Shown here: piece after piece, positions 48,218-57,571 of the stretch
How positions within the stretch are numbered: the stretch's first letter is position 1
How the letters are laid out: each line of letters begins with the position of its first letter
Source: Chloroflexota bacterium
Lineage (GTDB): Bacteria; Chloroflexota; Dehalococcoidia; Lucifugimonadales; UBA3495
Direction of reading: 5' to 3'
Assembly (NCBI GenBank): GCA_028875655.1
Contig: JAPPCX010000009.1
Location: 1-64,000 of the forward strand
Length of the DNA stretch: 64,000 nucleotides
Notes under the pieces: generated by a model
What the model saw: the letters and a program-made list of their open reading frames with translations, nothing else
Databases searched by the model: none
What the model was told of the DNA's origin: nothing
Position numbers and translations under genes: made by a program

Positions 48218-49048
48218 CTAGTCCCCTTCCCGGATGTTCTGGTACACCGCCAGCGGCGTCGCCGCCAGCAAGCCTGCGTCCACCGGCAGCACCACGCCCG
48301 ACACCCAGCGTGACTCGTCGCTGGCCAGAAAGAGGGCGGCGTAAGCGATGTCCCAGGCGTTGCCTTCCGTTCCCAGCGGCCCGGCCTTGCGCCGGCGTTC
48401 CCGCGTCTGCTCCGGCATCGCGCCGGCCACCATGGGCGTGTAGATGTGCCCCGGCGCGATCACGTTCACCCGCACGTTGTCCCGGCCCAGGTGTACCGCC
48501 ATCGTCTCCGACATACCGATCACGCCGGACTTGGATGCCGAGTAGGGAATGCTCGCCAGCCCGCTGCCGGCTCGCACGCCGGCGATGGATGACATATTGA
48601 TGATGCTGCCCCCGCCGGCGTCAATCATCTTCGGCACGGCGTATTTGGTGGTGAGCATCATGCTCTTCAGGTTCACGTCCAGGACGTTGTCCCATACGCT
48701 TTCCTCAACGTCGGTGGGCGTCCCGGGGCCGGTGATGCCCACGTTGTTGAACAGGACGTGCAACGCGCCGTAGCGTTCTACTGCGGCATCAACTATGGCC
48801 TCGCAGTCGGCGGCAGACGTCACGTCGGCCGCCATGATGGAACCCTCGCCGCCCTCTTCGTGAATGACCGCCAGGGTCTCTTCGGCCGCCTGCGGATTCC
48901 GGTCCACCAGGAGCACCTTCGCGCCCTCCCGTGCGAACAGGATCGAGGCGGCTTTGCCGGTTCCCATGCCCGGCCCGCTGGAACCGGCGCCGGTGATGAT
49001 GGCGACTTTGTCCTGGAGCCGTGGGCGTCCAGAGGGGAGCAGCGTCAT
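48218..49048 (-). CDS. SDR family oxidoreductase
   Basis: A 276-residue short-chain dehydrogenase. The coenzyme motif is ITGAGSSGPGMGTGKAASI near residue 17. FNNVGITGPG is the NNAG-type motif and the catalytic Ser-Tyr-Lys are in SSIAGVRAGSGLASIPYSASKSG. ATG 49048 has TGGAGGT 6-7 bases before it. It is the last gene of the leftward cluster from 53121. The substrate is unknown; the context suggests an alcohol or hydroxyacid. Confidence 0.92.
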   Translation of the reverse strand: MTLLPSGRPRLQDKVAIITGAGSSGPGMGTGKAASILFAREGAKVLLVDRNPQAAEETLAVIHEEGGEGSIMAADVTSAADCEAIVDAAVERYGALHVLFNNVGITGPGTPTDVEESVWDNVLDVNLKSMMLTTKYAVPKMIDAGGGSIINMSSIAGVRAGSGLASIPYSASKSGVIGMSETMAVHLGRDNVRVNVIAPGHIYTPMVAGAMPEQTRERRRKAGPLGTEGNAWDIAYAALFLASDESRWVSGVVLPVDAGLLAATPLAVYQNIREGD

Positions 49049-49061
49049 TATGTACCTCCAG

Positions 49062-49095
49062 TAGCTAGGGGCAGGTTTCAAACCTGTACCTACGG
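49062..49095. repeat. GTAGGGGC-type palindromic repeat
   Basis: An imperfect palindrome centred on GGTTTCAAACC, with TAGGGGC and GTACCTA sides. It lies between the SDR and the AhpD-like gene. Confidence 0.6.
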
Positions 49096-49102
49096 GCGCA
49101 GT

Positions 49103-49669
49103 TCAGGACACGGGCACAGCCTCGGTTTGCAGCAGCCAGTCCTGCGCCCGTTTCGCTTCGTCCGAAAGCCACTGGCTCATTATGGCTTCCCTGCCTTCGG
49201 GTATCTCAACGCCGAGGCCGTCGGCCAGCCGGTTCATGAAGTTGAACACGCAGGTGATGGCTACGGTGGACAGCACCTGCTCGTCGGTGAGGCCAAGGGA
49301 ACGCAGATGTTCGATGTCTGATTCTGCCATCGCGGCCGGCGTCAGCGTGAGCTTGACGGCGTAGTCCAGGATAGCCCGTGTCTGTGGGTCCAGGTCAGCC
49401 TGCTTGTAGTCGTGGATGATGTGCGACGAGTATTCAGGATCGCCGCAATGTTGACGGAGGAACCCTCCGTGGGCGACGGCTCAATACCGGCAACGGTTCA
49501 CCAGCGACACCACAGTGGCGATGGCCTCTTCCTGCGTCCGGGTCAGCGCCGAAGAGCCGAAGGTGGCGTTGGCGTTCAGGTTCTGCACCGCCGCCATCAG
49601 GTCCGGATTGATGGACATGCACTTGATGACGGCGGGAACGGCGGCATCCGTTTCACGTATCCATGACAT
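49103..49669 (-). CDS. AhpD-like selenoprotein (CxxU), carboxymuconolactone decarboxylase superfamily
   Basis: A 188-residue AhpD/peroxidase-related protein read through an in-frame TGA at 49483-49481. Before the TGA, MSWIRETDAAVPAVIKCMSI and LTRTQEEAIATVVSLVNRCRY fit the family; after it the frame continues AVAHGGFLRQHCGDPEYSSH and on to LAIT-like helices (VLSTVAITCVFNFMNRLADG). The active site CxxC would read CRYU, with the conserved HG after it. GGAG is 7 bases before ATG 49669. A hairpin lies just after the TGA. Known family members reduce peroxides or partner with redox relays. AhpD-like selenoproteins are known from earlier surveys. Conventional calling splits this gene in two. Confidence 0.85.
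49442..49480 (-). promoter_or_regulatory. SECIS-like hairpin after the AhpD-like TGA
   Basis: Following the UGA, ACGGAGG and CCTCCGT form a perfect 7-bp stem with a GTT loop, starting 10 bases after the codon. A GCCG/CGGC outer pairing may extend it. Bacterial SECIS elements sit in this position and have a guanine in the apical loop. Confidence 0.65.
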
Positions 49670-49704: not shown

Positions 49705-49732
49705 GGGGGGCGGGTTTCAAACCCGTCCCTAC
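49705..49732. repeat. GTAGGGGC-type palindromic repeat
   Basis: GGGGGGCGGGTTTCAAACCC followed by GTCCCTAC. It covers the stop codon of the FlK-like gene (TAG at 49731-49729) and is related to 49062-49095. Confidence 0.6.
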
Positions 49733-50124
49733 GCCAGGTCAGATTGCGGCACCACGGCCATTTTGTGCTCGGCGGTGCCTAATATCACGTCGCCCAGCCG
49801 CGCGACCACCTCGAAGCGCAGCTTGTTGCCGGACACATCCATCAGCGTAGATGTTCCCGTCACCCGGTCGCCCACGCCGGCCGGCGCCAAGTGCTTGACG
49901 TTGACCTCATAGCCCACCACCGTTTGACTCTCGGCCAGCAGCGGGCGCACCGCCGCGAACGATGCCTGCTCCATGAGCATCACCATGGCCGGGGTGCTGA
50001 ACTTGGGCGTGTGCGGGGCCAGGTGTTCGTCCGCTACGGTCAATTCGACCTCGCCCGCCAGACCCGGCCGGATGGCCGGATTCAACGGCGGGCGAGATAC
50101 GTTTGCTTGATTGGGAGTAGCCAC
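49729..50124 (-). CDS. FlK-like hotdog thioesterase
   Basis: A 131-residue hotdog-fold protein like fluoroacetyl-CoA thioesterase FlK. FSTPAMVMLMEQASFAAVRP carries the Thr and Glu, and VNVKHLAPAGVGDRVTGTST has the conserved His. It would hydrolyse a small acyl-CoA. The start is GTG 50124, without a clear ribosome binding site. It lies between two selenoprotein genes on the same strand. Its partner metabolite is unknown. Confidence 0.85.
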   Translation of the reverse strand: MATPNQANVSRPPLNPAIRPGLAGEVELTVADEHLAPHTPKFSTPAMVMLMEQASFAAVRPLLAESQTVVGYEVNVKHLAPAGVGDRVTGTSTLMDVSGNKLRFEVVARLGDVILGTAEHKMAVVPQSDLA

Positions 50125-50143: not shown

Positions 50144-50707
50144 TTACGCGGCTGGGACGGGCGCTCCGGTCAGGATGGACTCAACCTCGTCGGCCAGCTC
50201 GGCGGCTCGCTGTTTCACCTCATCGTCGGTGAGGCTGGACAGCGGATGCTGGGCCACGATGTACCGGTAGTCGGGAACACCCATCATGCGGGTCATAGCC
50301 TGGGCGGTGTTCAGGAACACGTGGGTGATGATGGCAGCGGTGGGGACGCCGCGCTTTTCCATGTCGATTCCGTCGTGCACACTGCACGAACTGCAAGACC
50401 CTCAATCACCCACCCCGGTGATGAGGTAGTCCACCTCGCCCAGGATGGAGTCGATCACATCCTGCTTGGCCGGCAGGCTGGCGTGGTGCTTACTGAAATA
50501 CTTGACCTCGGAAAAGCCGTGGCGCTCGTTGAGGATATTCCCCAGTTCATGCAGCAGCTTATCGGCGTTGGCCTTGGAGTTCTCCATGAGGCCCAGCCGC
50601 TTGCCGGCAAGGCCGCCAGAGCGGTCGTTCATGCGGAACTCGGTTTGGGGCAACTCGGTGCCCTTGGGGTTGACGAGCCGTAGGCGGCTCATTTCGGCGG
50701 TAGTCAT
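50144..50707 (-). CDS. UGSC-family selenoprotein
   Basis: A 187-residue protein with the signature GVGDUGSCSSCSVHDGIDME, in which U is the in-frame TGA at 50404-50402. The N-terminal part has NDRSGGLAGKRLGLMENSKA and DKLLHELGNILNERHGFSEV; the C-terminal part has RGVPTAAIITHVFLNTAQAM. ATG 50707 has GGAGGT 5 bases upstream. The UGSC family is named for this motif and occurs with Sec or Cys; its biochemical role is not established to my knowledge. The codon after the TGA fits the family exactly, so misassembly is unlikely. Confidence 0.9.
50382..50396 (-). promoter_or_regulatory. SECIS-like hairpin after the UGSC TGA
   Basis: UUGCA and UGCAG arms (one U-G pair) enclose a GUUCG loop, starting 5 bases after the TGA. 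It is short but well placed for SelB recognition. Confidence 0.5.
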
Positions 50708-50830
50708 ATCTAACCTCCGTTGGCGTGGTGATCGGAACTTGCGTAGTAGCGTGATTGTACCGTTATTCGACGGTGTTGCGTAACCCCTGGGACGCACAAT
50801 CGTGGCCGGCTCGGGAACTCAACGCCGCGA

Positions 50831-51859
50831 CTAGTTTCCGCCGATCTTCCGGGTGCGGATGCGGAAACCCGTGGTGTCGATGATGGCGCTGTAGCGACCG
50901 CCGGTGCCGCCGCCGTGCATGATCAGGATGTCGTCGGGGTCGTTGGCGCAGCGCATGATCAGATCCTCGTCTCCGGGACGTTCCGGCCCCTGCTTGGAGC
51001 CCAGGCGCACCAACTCGGCGCGGGAGCGGCCGCTGTTCTCGATGAGGAATTCCTGGATGTCCGTGCGACTCCAGCCGTCGCTTTGCAGCGTCAGCGCGTG
51101 CTCCGGGCCGATGACGATTACCCACTGGGCCGGGTAGCGGTGAGCCAGGGCGGTGGAGCGCAAGGCATCGCAGATGGAGTACAGGATTTGACGACCCGCA
51201 TGGCCGTAGCTGTTGGGCACGCTGACCGGGTTATACGCCACCGCCACTGTTACGACGCTGTCCGACGCCTGAAATCCCCGACTCACGTGCAGCGGTTCCC
51301 ACGGCGAGTCCTCTTCGTTCTCGGCGATGCAGAAGGTGTACTTGGCCGGCGTGCCGAGAGTTCCCCGGTCCAGCTGACCCGGCAACGCGTCGAAGCCGTT
51401 CATAAAGCAGAGACGAACGGCCCGGCCGATGCTGGCGTTGGCGCGGAAACCGGGGCCGAAAAGCCCGTCGCGGCTATTGATGCCCAGCGCCTCCCGGATC
51501 GGGCCGTTAAGCACCATCAGAATGCTGGGAGAGCTGGTGGAGGACGCTGCCATGTTGACGAAGTTGCGTTCCTCCTCCAGAGTTTTCAGCGCGGTGACCA
51601 GCACCGGAAAGTACTCGGCCTGGCAGCCGGCCATCACCGCGTTGGCGGCGGCGTTCTCGGACGTGATGACTCGGCTGCGCATGTCCAGGTTGAGCAGCTC
51701 CTCCTCGCCGGTCAGCCCGGCCACGGACAGCATCTCGCGGACTTTGTAATCGGCTGGGGGAACCACGGGCAACCCGTCAGTCCAACCCATGCGAAAACAT
51801 TCCTCAATGGCCTCAATGGTGTCGGCGGTTTCGACGTGGCGTTCGGCGCTGCTGGTCAT
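50831..51859 (-). CDS. Conserved protein of unknown function next to the UGSC gene
   Basis: A 342-residue soluble protein. Recognisable stretches are RMGWTDGLPVVPPADYKV near residue 23, VITSENAAANAVMAGCQAEY near 64, ASSTSSPSILMVLNGPIREA near 104 and FGPGFRANASIGRAVRL near 130. The C-terminal part has VIVIGPEHALTLQSDGWSR and ILIMHGGGTGGRYSAIIDTT. Family function is not known to me. AGGAG stands 6 bases before ATG 51859. It lies 123 bp upstream of the selenoprotein gene on the same strand, so a working partnership with UGSC is plausible. Confidence 0.75.
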   Translation of the reverse strand: MTSSAERHVETADTIEAIEECFRMGWTDGLPVVPPADYKVREMLSVAGLTGEEELLNLDMRSRVITSENAAANAVMAGCQAEYFPVLVTALKTLEEERNFVNMAASSTSSPSILMVLNGPIREALGINSRDGLFGPGFRANASIGRAVRLCFMNGFDALPGQLDRGTLGTPAKYTFCIAENEEDSPWEPLHVSRGFQASDSVVTVAVAYNPVSVPNSYGHAGRQILYSICDALRSTALAHRYPAQWVIVIGPEHALTLQSDGWSRTDIQEFLIENSGRSRAELVRLGSKQGPERPGDEDLIMRCANDPDDILIMHGGGTGGRYSAIIDTTGFRIRTRKIGGN

Positions 51860-51875
51860 CGTAATCTCCTGATGT

Positions 51876-52208
51876 TTAGTCGCGAATATTTTTCAGTTTC
51901 CCGGTCACAATCAACCCGTCGGTAACGCTGTAACCGTGCCCCGGGTCAGCGAGGTCCGTGTTGGTTGCCATATACGCGGTGCGGCCGCTGACGACGGGAG
52001 TGATGGAAATCACCTCGTAGCCTTCCGCGTCCAGATCGTTGCAACAGCGTTCCAGGTACTCAGCCATTTGTTGCAGCCGCGTATGCTCCTCGCTGGTGAT
52101 GCTGACGCGACCGACGTTGCCGCCATGGGTGGACAACTGCGTGTCGGCATACACGTACCGGGTGGCATACGCGGGCTTGTCTTTGGCAGGATACTGTGAA
52201 CGGAACAA
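51876..52208 (-). CDS. Small hypothetical protein
   Basis: A 110-residue protein with TRLQQMAEYLERCCNDLDAE and GYEVISITPVVSGRTAYMAT, resembling the small 'unknown' proteins with a DUF4177-like two-helix/strand layout. The start is TTG 52208 with GAGGT 7 bases before it, just after the stop of the dehydrogenase gene. I cannot assign a function. It is probably in one transcript with its neighbours. Confidence 0.6.
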   Translation of the reverse strand: MFRSQYPAKDKPAYATRYVYADTQLSTHGGNVGRVSITSEEHTRLQQMAEYLERCCNDLDAEGYEVISITPVVSGRTAYMATNTDLADPGHGYSVTDGLIVTGKLKNIRD

Positions 52209-52218
52209 CGGCGGTACC

Positions 52219-53121
52219 TCAGCCGCCCATGCCGCCGAACCGCAGCTGCACTCCTGACTTCTCTTCCTGCAGCTTGGCTACGGCGTCGGAGTCTTCGGGA
52301 CCCCAGCCGCGGAACAGGGCTTCCACGTGGCGCTGGTCCACCAGGTTGGAGAGTTCCATGGGGATGCCGTACTCGCGTCCCAGGTCGGTGGCGAGGCGCA
52401 CGTCTTTGGCGGCCAGGGCGGTGGCGAATCCCGGCTCGAAGTTGTCGGCGAACAGGTAGCGGGGGAACTTCTCCACCAGGCGGCGGTTGCCGCCGCTGCT
52501 GTTGGCGATGACGTCGGCCAGGGTTTCCAGGGACACACCGGCTTTAACGCCCAGGGTCAGCGCTTCCGACATCAGCACGCCGATGCCCATGGACAGCAGG
52601 TTGTTGCAGATCTTGGTGACCATGCCGTTGCCGATTTCTCCGCAATAGACCACGTGGGCGCCGATGGCGTCGAGCATGGGCTTGACGTTGTTGTACGTCG
52701 CCTCATCGCCGCCGACCATGACGGCCAGCGTGCCGGCCGCCGCGCCATAGACGCCGCCGCTCACCGGCGCGTCCAGCACCGTGACGCCCCGCGCGCCACA
52801 CTCGGCATGGATGCGGCGGATGACCGTTGGCGAGTTGGTGGAGAGGTCAACGTACACGTCGCCGTCGGCGGCCGCCGACATGATGCCGTTCTCACCCATC
52901 ACCACCGCCTCAACATCCCGTGGCACCGGCAGCGAGGTGAACACGGCGTCGTTGCCGGCCACGCAGCCGGCCGGCGTGTCCGACCATTCCGCGCCCATCT
53001 CCAGCAGGTTGGTGGCCGATTCCCGGCGCAGGTCGTGAATGGTGAGTTGGTGGCCGGCCTTGATCATGTTGGCGGCCATCGGGTTTCCCATATTGCCGAC
53101 GCCAATAAACCCAGCTTTCAT
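52219..53121 (-). CDS. 3-hydroxyisobutyrate dehydrogenase-family oxidoreductase, paralogue
   Basis: A 300-residue beta-hydroxyacid dehydrogenase. GFIGVGNMGNPMAANMIKAG opens the Rossmann fold, DAPVSGGVYGAAAG binds substrate and the catalytic lysine is in NGMVTKICNNLLSMG near residue 170. The ending KLQEEKSGVQLRFGGMGG resembles the paralogue at 121-1074 (LQEEQAGVEVR). It starts the leftward cluster with the selenoprotein genes and may handle a hydroxyacid there. Confidence 0.92.
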   Translation of the reverse strand: MKAGFIGVGNMGNPMAANMIKAGHQLTIHDLRRESATNLLEMGAEWSDTPAGCVAGNDAVFTSLPVPRDVEAVVMGENGIMSAAADGDVYVDLSTNSPTVIRRIHAECGARGVTVLDAPVSGGVYGAAAGTLAVMVGGDEATYNNVKPMLDAIGAHVVYCGEIGNGMVTKICNNLLSMGIGVLMSEALTLGVKAGVSLETLADVIANSSGGNRRLVEKFPRYLFADNFEPGFATALAAKDVRLATDLGREYGIPMELSNLVDQRHVEALFRGWGPEDSDAVAKLQEEKSGVQLRFGGMGG

Positions 53122-55742: not shown

Positions 55743-55818
55743 TGCCCCCGTAGCTCAGTGGATAGAGTGCTGGCCTCCGGAGCCAGAGACCGGAGTTCGA
55801 GTCTCCGCGGGGGTACCA
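55743..55818 (+). tRNA. tRNA-Arg(CCG)
   Basis: The cloverleaf runs 55743-55815 with the encoded CCA at 55816-55818. The acceptor stem GCCCCCG pairs with CGGGGGT (one G-U end pair). The anticodon arm is CTGGC-CTCCGGA-GCCAG with anticodon CCG, and the T arm has GGAG-TTCGAGT-CTCC. The reading is arginine CGG. The adjacent recombinase gene's 3' end is antisense to most of it. Confidence 0.95.
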
Positions 55819-56981
55819 CCACTTCCAATACTGCGAACACCGCTGTTCAGGGCGATTTCAGCGGCGTCCGCTCCCCTTATTGGACTATCTTCCGGCGTGG
55901 GGATCGTGTAGATAATGGTCGCCCCGCCGGCTCTCACCAGTACCTCCCTGACGAACGACCGCACGAAGGCTTTGGTCTCGGTGAGTTCACTGGTCTTCAG
56001 AAACGCGCTCATGTCGGCGGCAAACGCGGCGATGGTGTCGGCGCTGTCCAGCAATTCGCGCCGTTCCGCCAGCACGACCCTGGCATCCTCGGCAGCGGCT
56101 TCCAGTTGTTCCCGGCGGTGCCGGTGTGCCAGGATGCGCTCCGAAGCGTCGGCCATCTCCAGGTCGGTACTCTCCACAAAGTGCCAGATGCGATCCAGCT
56201 TCCGCTTGACCTCTTCCAACTCGGCTTCGATGGTCTCCAGGTTCTGCCGCTGTTCTCGGGCCACACCGTCCATCTCCTCGTCCAGCAGCTTCACCAGGTC
56301 GCGGATGTTGGACTCGGTGAGGATGTGGTCCCGGATGTTGGAGATGATAACCTCCTCGAAGGACTTGGCGTTGAGCCTGGGGGTCTGGCAAGAACCGCTG
56401 CCCTGCTTGAGGATGGACTGGCAGACGTAGTAGGTGTATTTGCCGCTCTTGGCTTCGGAGGCGGAGAGGGCCTTGCCACAGGTCTCGCACTTGGCCAGGC
56501 CGCTGAGGAGGTAGGGACTGGCGGCGCGGCGGGGATGCGTGACTGAAGGTGCGCGGGCTGCCAGCAGCTTCCTGACCCGCTGAAACTCCTCGTGCGAGAC
56601 AATCGCGGGGAAGGCATCTTCCACCCGCACCGGGTCCTGGCCGTCCTTGGCGTTGGTTCCCCAGACCAGGGTTCCGGTGTAGGCTTCGTTGGTGAGGAGC
56701 TTGTGGATGACGGTCTTGCTCCACCGCTTCCCGCTGGAGGAGGGAATGCCCTCGGCGTTGAGAGTCTTGAGGATGTCCAGGGTGGTCCTGCCCTGGAGGG
56801 TGAGGTCGAAGATGCGTCGGACCACGGCGTCGTGGGGCGGGTTCAGTTCCAGGCGGGGGCGCTTCTTGGCGCCGTCCTGGACGTAGAGCCGCCGGTAGCC
56901 GTAGGGGGCGTAGGTGGTCATCCAGAAGCCCCGGGAAGCGGCCTCGCGCATTCCCCGCGTGACTTCCTGGGCCAAGATATC
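55755..56981 (-). pseudogene. Serine recombinase, N-terminally truncated
   Basis: About 409 codons of a large serine recombinase. It begins near DILAQEVTRGMREAASRGFW, continues with APYGYRRLYVQDG, the recombinase domain (IFDLTLQGRTTLDILKTLNA), and a zinc ribbon CETCGK...CQS...C. A coiled coil (QNLETIEAELEEVKRKLDRI) follows. The N-terminal resolvase domain with the catalytic Ser is missing. The last ~20 codons are antisense to the tRNA-Arg gene, as is typical of elements that integrate into tRNA genes. The frame is open farther upstream, but that part looks non-coding. Confidence 0.85.
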
Positions 56982-57571
56982 CGTTTTCCAATCAACACCA
57001 AAAATTGAGATACTCTTGGAGTGTGGCATTGGAAAGCAAATGACGTTTGGCACAAAAGCGGCTCTTGGTCCAGTCAGGCCATAACGCCGGAAAATTGCCA
57101 CCTCTAGCTTTGCAAAGCTGGAATAGGGACTCAGTTTGAAATGGGGCATTGAAAAATCAAATGGTAGCCCTCGCACGCCAGCTAACCAAGTCACAGCCAA
57201 GCCAACTCGCCGACGGACCGATAACCGCATTCGCGGCAGCGGTAACGCTGTCGTCCTGAAGTGTCCCGATTTGATGCAGCTCCCTACGCCCGGTTCAAGG
57301 TGGACTGGTTCCAGTACCCACTTCTCACGGGCCACAGGGTGAACCCGCAGCCGGCTCCAGTCCTATCGGTCAACCAGCACTGGCACCCTTGCCGCCCTCC
57401 GGAACGGCACCCCACGCCGTGGGTAGCGAGTCTGCCGCCCCAGACGGCAGAACCTGCTAAAGGGATTTTGCGCAACTCACCCTTCCGTGCTTGGCCATGG
57501 AGAAAATGCCAATCGCGGAAGGCACCAAGGCAAACGCCGTTTCCACACCGTGCGCGCGTTCCCCCCTGACC

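Follow-up and report, generated by a model that had tools for sequence, protein, structure and literature searches.

The window analysed here, a stretch of 64,000 nucleotides from a Chloroflexota genome, carries on its minus strand an apparent operon in which two genes contain an in-frame TGA. One of them codes for a UGSC-family selenoprotein of 187 aa (50144..50707), with its start codon ATG at 50707-50705, its stop codon TAA at 50146-50144 and, as codon 102, a TGA (50402..50404) which is read here as selenocysteine (Sec). Readthrough of this codon yields GVGD-U-GSCSSC, the UGSC signature. A Shine-Dalgarno sequence, GGAGG (50714..50718, minus strand), lies 6 nt 5' of the ATG, and a SECIS-type hairpin, UCGUGCA-GUG-UGCACGA (50373..50389, minus strand), occupies nucleotides 15-31 after the T of the TGA. 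An earlier, sequence-only reading of this DNA had placed the gene, its TGA and the motif exactly, and the single reading frame with a strong ribosome binding site and the single hairpin that it described (7-bp stem, GUG loop) were likewise recovered. Its assignment of the protein to the UGSC family is also supported: the protein scores 193.9 bits against Pfam PF24696 (cut-off 25) and 156.7 bits against NCBIfam NF041046 (cut-off 125), and both matches extend across the TGA and cover nearly the whole protein. In its full-length match, its U-G-S-C motif and its in-frame TGA, the protein thus agrees with the family as described in the GOS and Olavius symbiont papers, and the gene by itself is a new member of an already known family. 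What goes beyond the earlier reading is the partner protein, the presence of eight paralogues, the relationship to GrdB/PrdB and the extreme expansion elsewhere.

The neighbouring genes lie on the same strand. Directly upstream is the gene of the partner protein (50831..51859; 342 aa), which neighbours UGSC, or forms a fusion with it, across bacteria. Between it and a 3-hydroxyisobutyrate dehydrogenase-family gene (52219..53121), also found upstream of the partner in loci L068-L071 at 78-95% identity, lies a 110-aa ORF (51876..52208) of uncharacterised function, with a 78% identical copy in L068. Downstream follow a hotdog thioesterase (49729..50124), whose best Pfam match is FlK (PF22636, 2.2e-25) and which is kept in L068, then an AhpD/CMD peroxidase-related selenoprotein with a CxxU motif (49103..49669; TGA 49483-49481) and a short-chain dehydrogenase (SDR; 48218..49081), at which the apparent operon ends. 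The AhpD/CMD-type gene has its own hairpin (49470-49454; 7 bp, GUU loop, 13-29 nt after the T of the TGA). The window's two Sec codons are 921 nt apart, a distance fairly rendered by the earlier description of UGSC as 1 kb upstream of the other selenoprotein. The AhpD-like CxxU selenoproteins (TIGR01926, NF041238), to which that second protein belongs, are unrelated to UGSC and differ in motif order.

The neighbours of UGSC are largely catabolic and diverse; among 136 neighbours of many UGSC loci, the commonest are amidohydrolases, NHL propellers, SDRs, CBS-domain proteins and luciferase-type monooxygenases. Reading a function from these neighbours was tried and abandoned, as in most genomes they belong to mixed families and name no single pathway or substrate. 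Elsewhere in the window, a large serine recombinase-like ORF (55755-57335, minus strand) directly abuts and slightly overlaps a tRNA-Arg (CCG) gene (55744-55818, plus strand), an arrangement like that at the border of an integrated element.

Selenocysteine at the in-frame TGA

A TGA inside a reading frame may in general also terminate translation, result from a sequencing error or be a codon reassigned throughout the genome. Nothing apart from this general possibility favours such an explanation for the UGSC gene, and it is rendered exceedingly improbable by several independent observations, the first of which is repetition: the genome that holds the window (3.45 Mb, 97% complete) codes for eight UGSC proteins, the window's and seven more, each with exactly one TGA, at the UGSC site. 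The same genome has selA (553 bits), selB (361 bits) and a tRNA-Sec with anticodon UCA (66.4 bits); an absence of selB and selC was one of the two findings that the sequence-only reading had named as fatal to its claim. The other was homologues that end at the TGA. The homologues do not end there, and the rare ones lacking a TGA carry a cysteine or a TAG in its place. Within the phylum, UGSC is present in 32 of 301 genomes, and 73 of the 76 UGSC matches listed from it have the TGA, as do 70 of 72 UGSC homologues near a partner gene. selA lies above its cut-off in 31 of the 32 UGSC genomes, but also in 243 of the 301 genomes of the phylum, and thus says little as a discriminator.

The selective constraint on the gene also counts against a stop. 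Relative to L068, dN/dS is 0.109 before the TGA and 0.117 after it, and purifying selection of equal strength on both sides implies that readthrough is not a matter of chance.

The hairpin provides further evidence. Across homologues it keeps a stem of 6-7 bp and a GU-containing loop at the same 15-31 nt after the T of the TGA. In 38 distinct homologues, picked from 68 for diversity and not for pairing, 96.9% of the hairpin cells are paired (80.1% when shuffled), 26 are changed on both sides (5.9 when shuffled) and the covariation score is 0.410, compared with 0.116 for shuffled alignments and at most 0.063 for slid versions. The same stem is recovered unaided by RNAalifold, and pairing over its seven pairs reaches 91% across all 68 windows. 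Synonymous-codon shuffles (300 rounds), which separate the hairpin signal from protein constraint, show a stem of at least 5 bp with a GU loop in 68 of 77 UGSC genes, where 11.3 are expected and 22 is the maximum in the 300 shuffles. The folding energy of the 54 nt after the TGA gives only a weak signal (mean z-score -0.61 versus +0.05), far below that of the explicit hairpin tests. By covariation and by synonymous shuffling, the gene thus has the SECIS hairpin shortly after UGA that is expected of a bacterial selenoprotein, and a covarying hairpin would not be accounted for by a stop, an error or a reassigned codon.

The variants at the Sec site are equally informative. In Geodermatophilus ruber (L107 3700-3790 and L181 1501-1592) the codon is TAG instead of TGA, and the tRNA-Sec of this organism has the anticodon CUA (labelled Pyl by ARAGORN), so that the Sec codon tracks the anticodon; the hairpin is intact despite the TAG, with 6 of 6 pairs. 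Such a use of UAG for Sec was reportedly described in this family of Actinobacteria by Mukai and colleagues in 2016. The joint switch of codon and tRNA is a further point against a stop, an error or a reassignment. In another actinobacterium, Amycolatopsis bartoniae (L141), Sec is replaced by Cys; homologues of this kind had been suggested as a check by the earlier reading. Taken together, the comparative evidence strongly argues that Sec is almost certainly inserted at the UGSC TGA, by SelB, tRNA-Sec and the downstream hairpin.

The motif itself is narrower than the window sequence suggests. Of 71 homologues, 70 retain the Cys at position +3 from Sec, and only 31 of 70 have the third Cys; UxxCxxC was rejected on this count as the family motif, which is UGxC. 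A UGSS variant, in which Sec is retained and the Cys of UGSC has become Ser, occurs in L144 (725-1237).

The partner protein and the multiplication of UGSC

The 342-aa partner matches no NCBIfam model, and no Pfam model even at E values up to 10. No GrdE or PrdA model was matched, and the processing of a pyruvoyl proprotein would be invisible in the sequence. The association of this protein with UGSC is nonetheless close. In the window's genome, every one of the eight UGSC genes has a partner homologue next to it or fused with it. Among the 301 genomes of the phylum the partner, like UGSC, occurs in 32, of which 31 are common to both (Fisher p 6e-40). A scan of genome contigs with the partner returned more than 580 relatives, in Chloroflexota, Burkholderiales, Rokubacteria, Binatia, Actinomycetes, Poribacteria and others. 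Among the best 80 of these, 69 loci have UGSC on the same stretch, at a median gap of 79 nt, and the order is not fixed (partner first in 56, UGSC first in 17). For the 11 partner loci with no UGSC nearby, the genomes checked (9 of 9) have UGSC elsewhere. A shorter partner of ~270 aa, with no UGSC nearby and a single UGSC gene elsewhere in each genome, is found in Poribacteria (L117, L119, L127, L137), and a Bacillota MAG (HOT.MB2.4; L104) has two adjoining partner genes with no UGSC nearby and two UGSC genes elsewhere.

Natural fusions point in the same direction. The predicted structure of the UGSC-partner fusion in L103 is a single compact unit (pLDDT 94.5, pTM 0.91), and the confidence of this model indicates a defined arrangement of the two halves. 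Co-occurrence, adjacency, fusions and the fused model together argue that UGSC and its partner are coupled genetically and probably physically, and it is highly likely that they form a two-subunit complex. The 2008 GOS paper described UGSC as fused to a domain termed "Unknown_1", which is possibly the same domain as the partner; neither that paper nor the one on the Olavius symbiont mentions, in relation to UGSC, a near-obligate partner or a kinship with GrdB/PrdB.

The family is multiplied to an extreme in a groundwater Chloroflexi MAG (G515; NC_groundwater_644_Ag_B-0.1um_60_123, assembly JACPQD01, 5.0 Mb, the genome of locus L135), which has at least 148 UGSC matches, with 60 more candidates outside this count. 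Nearly all of the matches listed have one TGA; they lie on contigs C99, C9, C97, C11, C80 and others (L201-L256). Two contigs, of 350 and 359 kb, hold 25 and 22 UGSC genes, a density which binning errors cannot explain. Nor are the genes assembly duplicates, as the identity to the nearest paralogue has a median of 69% and exceeds 90% in only two cases. In the DNA sampled from this genome, 91 of 95 UGSC genes have the Sec codon, the hairpin test is positive in 58 of 91 (8.2 expected), and most of the genes are paired with a partner gene. TGA serves as the normal stop of 25 of 91 neighbouring genes, a further observation against a reassigned codon. SelA and SelB queries and a tRNA-Sec search found nothing in the ~1.9 of 5.0 Mb examined. 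The commonest neighbours are family-5 ABC solute-binding proteins (SBP_bac_5), which make up 55 of 91 sampled neighbouring genes; this suggests that each UGSC-partner pair may have its own imported compound.

Fold and kinship of the UGSC protein

Modelled alone, the UGSC protein is predicted (pLDDT 90.4) to alternate strictly between beta and alpha units, and its Sec opens a late helix (102-117). This model argues for a flavodoxin/Rossmann-like sandwich and not for the thioredoxin order. A thioredoxin-like fold had been assumed for UGSC in the 2008 GOS paper, and UGSC might on that basis be a thioredoxin-like selenol redox protein, a peroxidase or disulfide reductase, with the partner as its reductase or target. 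The UxxC motif and the AhpD-type CxxU selenoprotein of the same operon would fit such a role. The thioredoxin fold itself (beta-alpha-beta-alpha-beta-beta-alpha, with UxxC at the first helix) is disfavoured by the alternating units and the late position of Sec in a confident model, and no thioredoxin proteins are among the fold matches listed. Since the sequence kinship set out below points to GrdB/PrdB, and more than 140 paralogues with solute-binding proteins as neighbours fit housekeeping redox poorly, a thioredoxin-like role is improbable.

The top structural match of the UGSC model is 8s7v_H, from the MCR activation complex (Z 11.4, rmsd 2.8, 127 residues, 18% identity). McrC and Mmp7 of that complex bind nitrogenase-like clusters (PMC12176620), and the match could be taken to mean that the UGSC module handles a metal or Fe-S cluster in a similar manner. 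The matched protein is known here by its chain letter H only, the fold is very common and the next match, a de novo design, is one Z unit lower (10.4), so that the similarity is no more than a lead. No sequence relatives were found in the PDB with the UGSC, partner or GrdB/PrdB profiles, and cofactor assembly is difficult to reconcile with more than 140 copies lying beside solute-binding proteins. A role in metal or cluster handling is accordingly rated as very improbable.

The relationship to GrdB/PrdB, the selenoprotein B of glycine, sarcosine, betaine and D-proline reductases, is better supported. A profile of 56 UGSC proteins, compared by hhalign with the GrdB and PrdB-like Sec domain from related genomes, gave 94.4% with the Sec columns aligned; the values were 90.9% for GrdB alone and 55.0% for PrdB-like proteins alone, whereas the controls (partner, SDR, HIBADH, AhpD) gave 0.1-0.5%. 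Besides that of UGSC, the only NCBIfam models matching many UGSC members are five for GrdB, GrdF, GrdH, selenoprotein B or PrdB, and one of these, TIGR01917, matches 26 of the 56 members (best 5.9e-7). UGSC is therefore very probably a distant relative of the GrdB/PrdB Sec domain (PF07355, TIGR01917/01918/04483), with which it shares the UGxx signature, E..GIP and an HPL region, and both probably consist of two subunits, the second being a substrate-side partner. It is not a GrdB: with only 187 aa it lacks the N-terminal half of that protein, and PF07355 gives no match to it at E values up to 1. The two groups differ further in that the partner of UGSC is unrecognisable as GrdE or PrdA, and in that UGSC occurs in aerobes and in far larger sets of paralogues. 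A search of the window's genome for GrdA (PF04723) gave no match, and the search controls were equally silent. Two further selenoprotein genes of this genome are PrdB-like and carry a U-P-x-C motif (L148 on contig C68, L149 on C106); their PF07355 matches end at Sec, probably because the database entries are truncated there.

A possible reductive selenoenzyme

Those GrdB/PrdB relatives whose activity is known carry out reductions, which would be consistent with a reductive role for UGSC. The complete proposal, that UGSC is the Sec subunit of a substrate-specific, two-subunit, PrdB-like reductive selenoenzyme of which the partner is the other subunit, stands at an even balance of probability; reductive cleavage of a carbon-heteroatom bond, as the chemistry in particular, is put forward somewhat more hesitantly, just short of that balance. 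The Sec subunit would descend from the same domain as that of GrdB/PrdB, presenting Sec at a helix start in an alternating alpha/beta fold. The selenolate may then attack a carbon atom in a small bound substrate and displace a heteroatom, as proposed for D-proline reductase, after which the Cys of UGxC would form an Se-S bond and free the reduced product, and a thiol or disulfide system would regenerate the enzyme. The partner would have the task of binding the substrate, activating it and determining specificity, and each paralogue may serve a different imported compound. In the window, the product would feed a pathway of 3-hydroxyacid dehydrogenase, thioesterase and SDR; from the neighbouring dehydrogenase, our guess is a short hydroxy or keto acid.

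Many hosts of UGSC, such as Burkholderiales and Geodermatophilus, look aerobic, unlike the classical hosts of GrdB/PrdB, and this speaks against a reductive reaction. Sec might instead be a covalent nucleophile in a non-reductive reaction on organic acids, as in a lyase, hydrolase, isomerase or racemase, the kinship with GrdB being only ancestral. In addition to the aerobic hosts, the amidohydrolases, CoA transferases, SDRs and thioesterase among the neighbours and the poorly kept third Cys would be in keeping with such a reaction. The near-invariant Cys at +3 from Sec is, however, what is expected for an Se-S redox step, and together with the reductive activity of the relatives it leaves the non-reductive nucleophile unlikely, though the most plausible of the alternatives to a reductive selenoenzyme. 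A precedent for the recruitment of a GrdB-type protein to a non-amino-acid substrate, with its own transporter, is the fluoroacetate dehalorespiration operon of Synergistota (PMC10838667), which has a different gene set, a true GrdB-like protein and no demonstrated link to UGSC.

The two-subunit enzyme proposed here, its probable lineage, the corrected fold predicted for it and the extreme multiplication are new to a family that accounts for 8.2% of marine selenoprotein genes (PMC9402790) and whose function was listed as uncharacterised in 2026 (PMC13188914). With the partner, the enzyme lineage and the predicted fold, the function of UGSC becomes a defined biochemical question, and the results show where an explanation may be sought for a selenoprotein that is among the most frequent of those without an assigned role. 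In the broadest interpretation, for and against which the balance is about equal, UGSC and its partner would belong to the GrdB/PrdB lineage and form a large superfamily, so far overlooked, of two-subunit selenoenzymes that are each specific for a substrate and occur in aerobes and anaerobes alike. The superfamily would be multiplied to more than 140 copies in some Chloroflexi, many of them beside ABC solute-binding genes, where selenium chemistry would be the main route to opening organic molecules and the selenoproteome by far the largest known. The largest bacterial selenoproteome in the 2026 review has 63 members (PMC13188914), and the UGSC genes of the groundwater genome would, if this is true, more than double that record from one family. 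Some groundwater bacteria would then depend on selenium to a degree not previously described.
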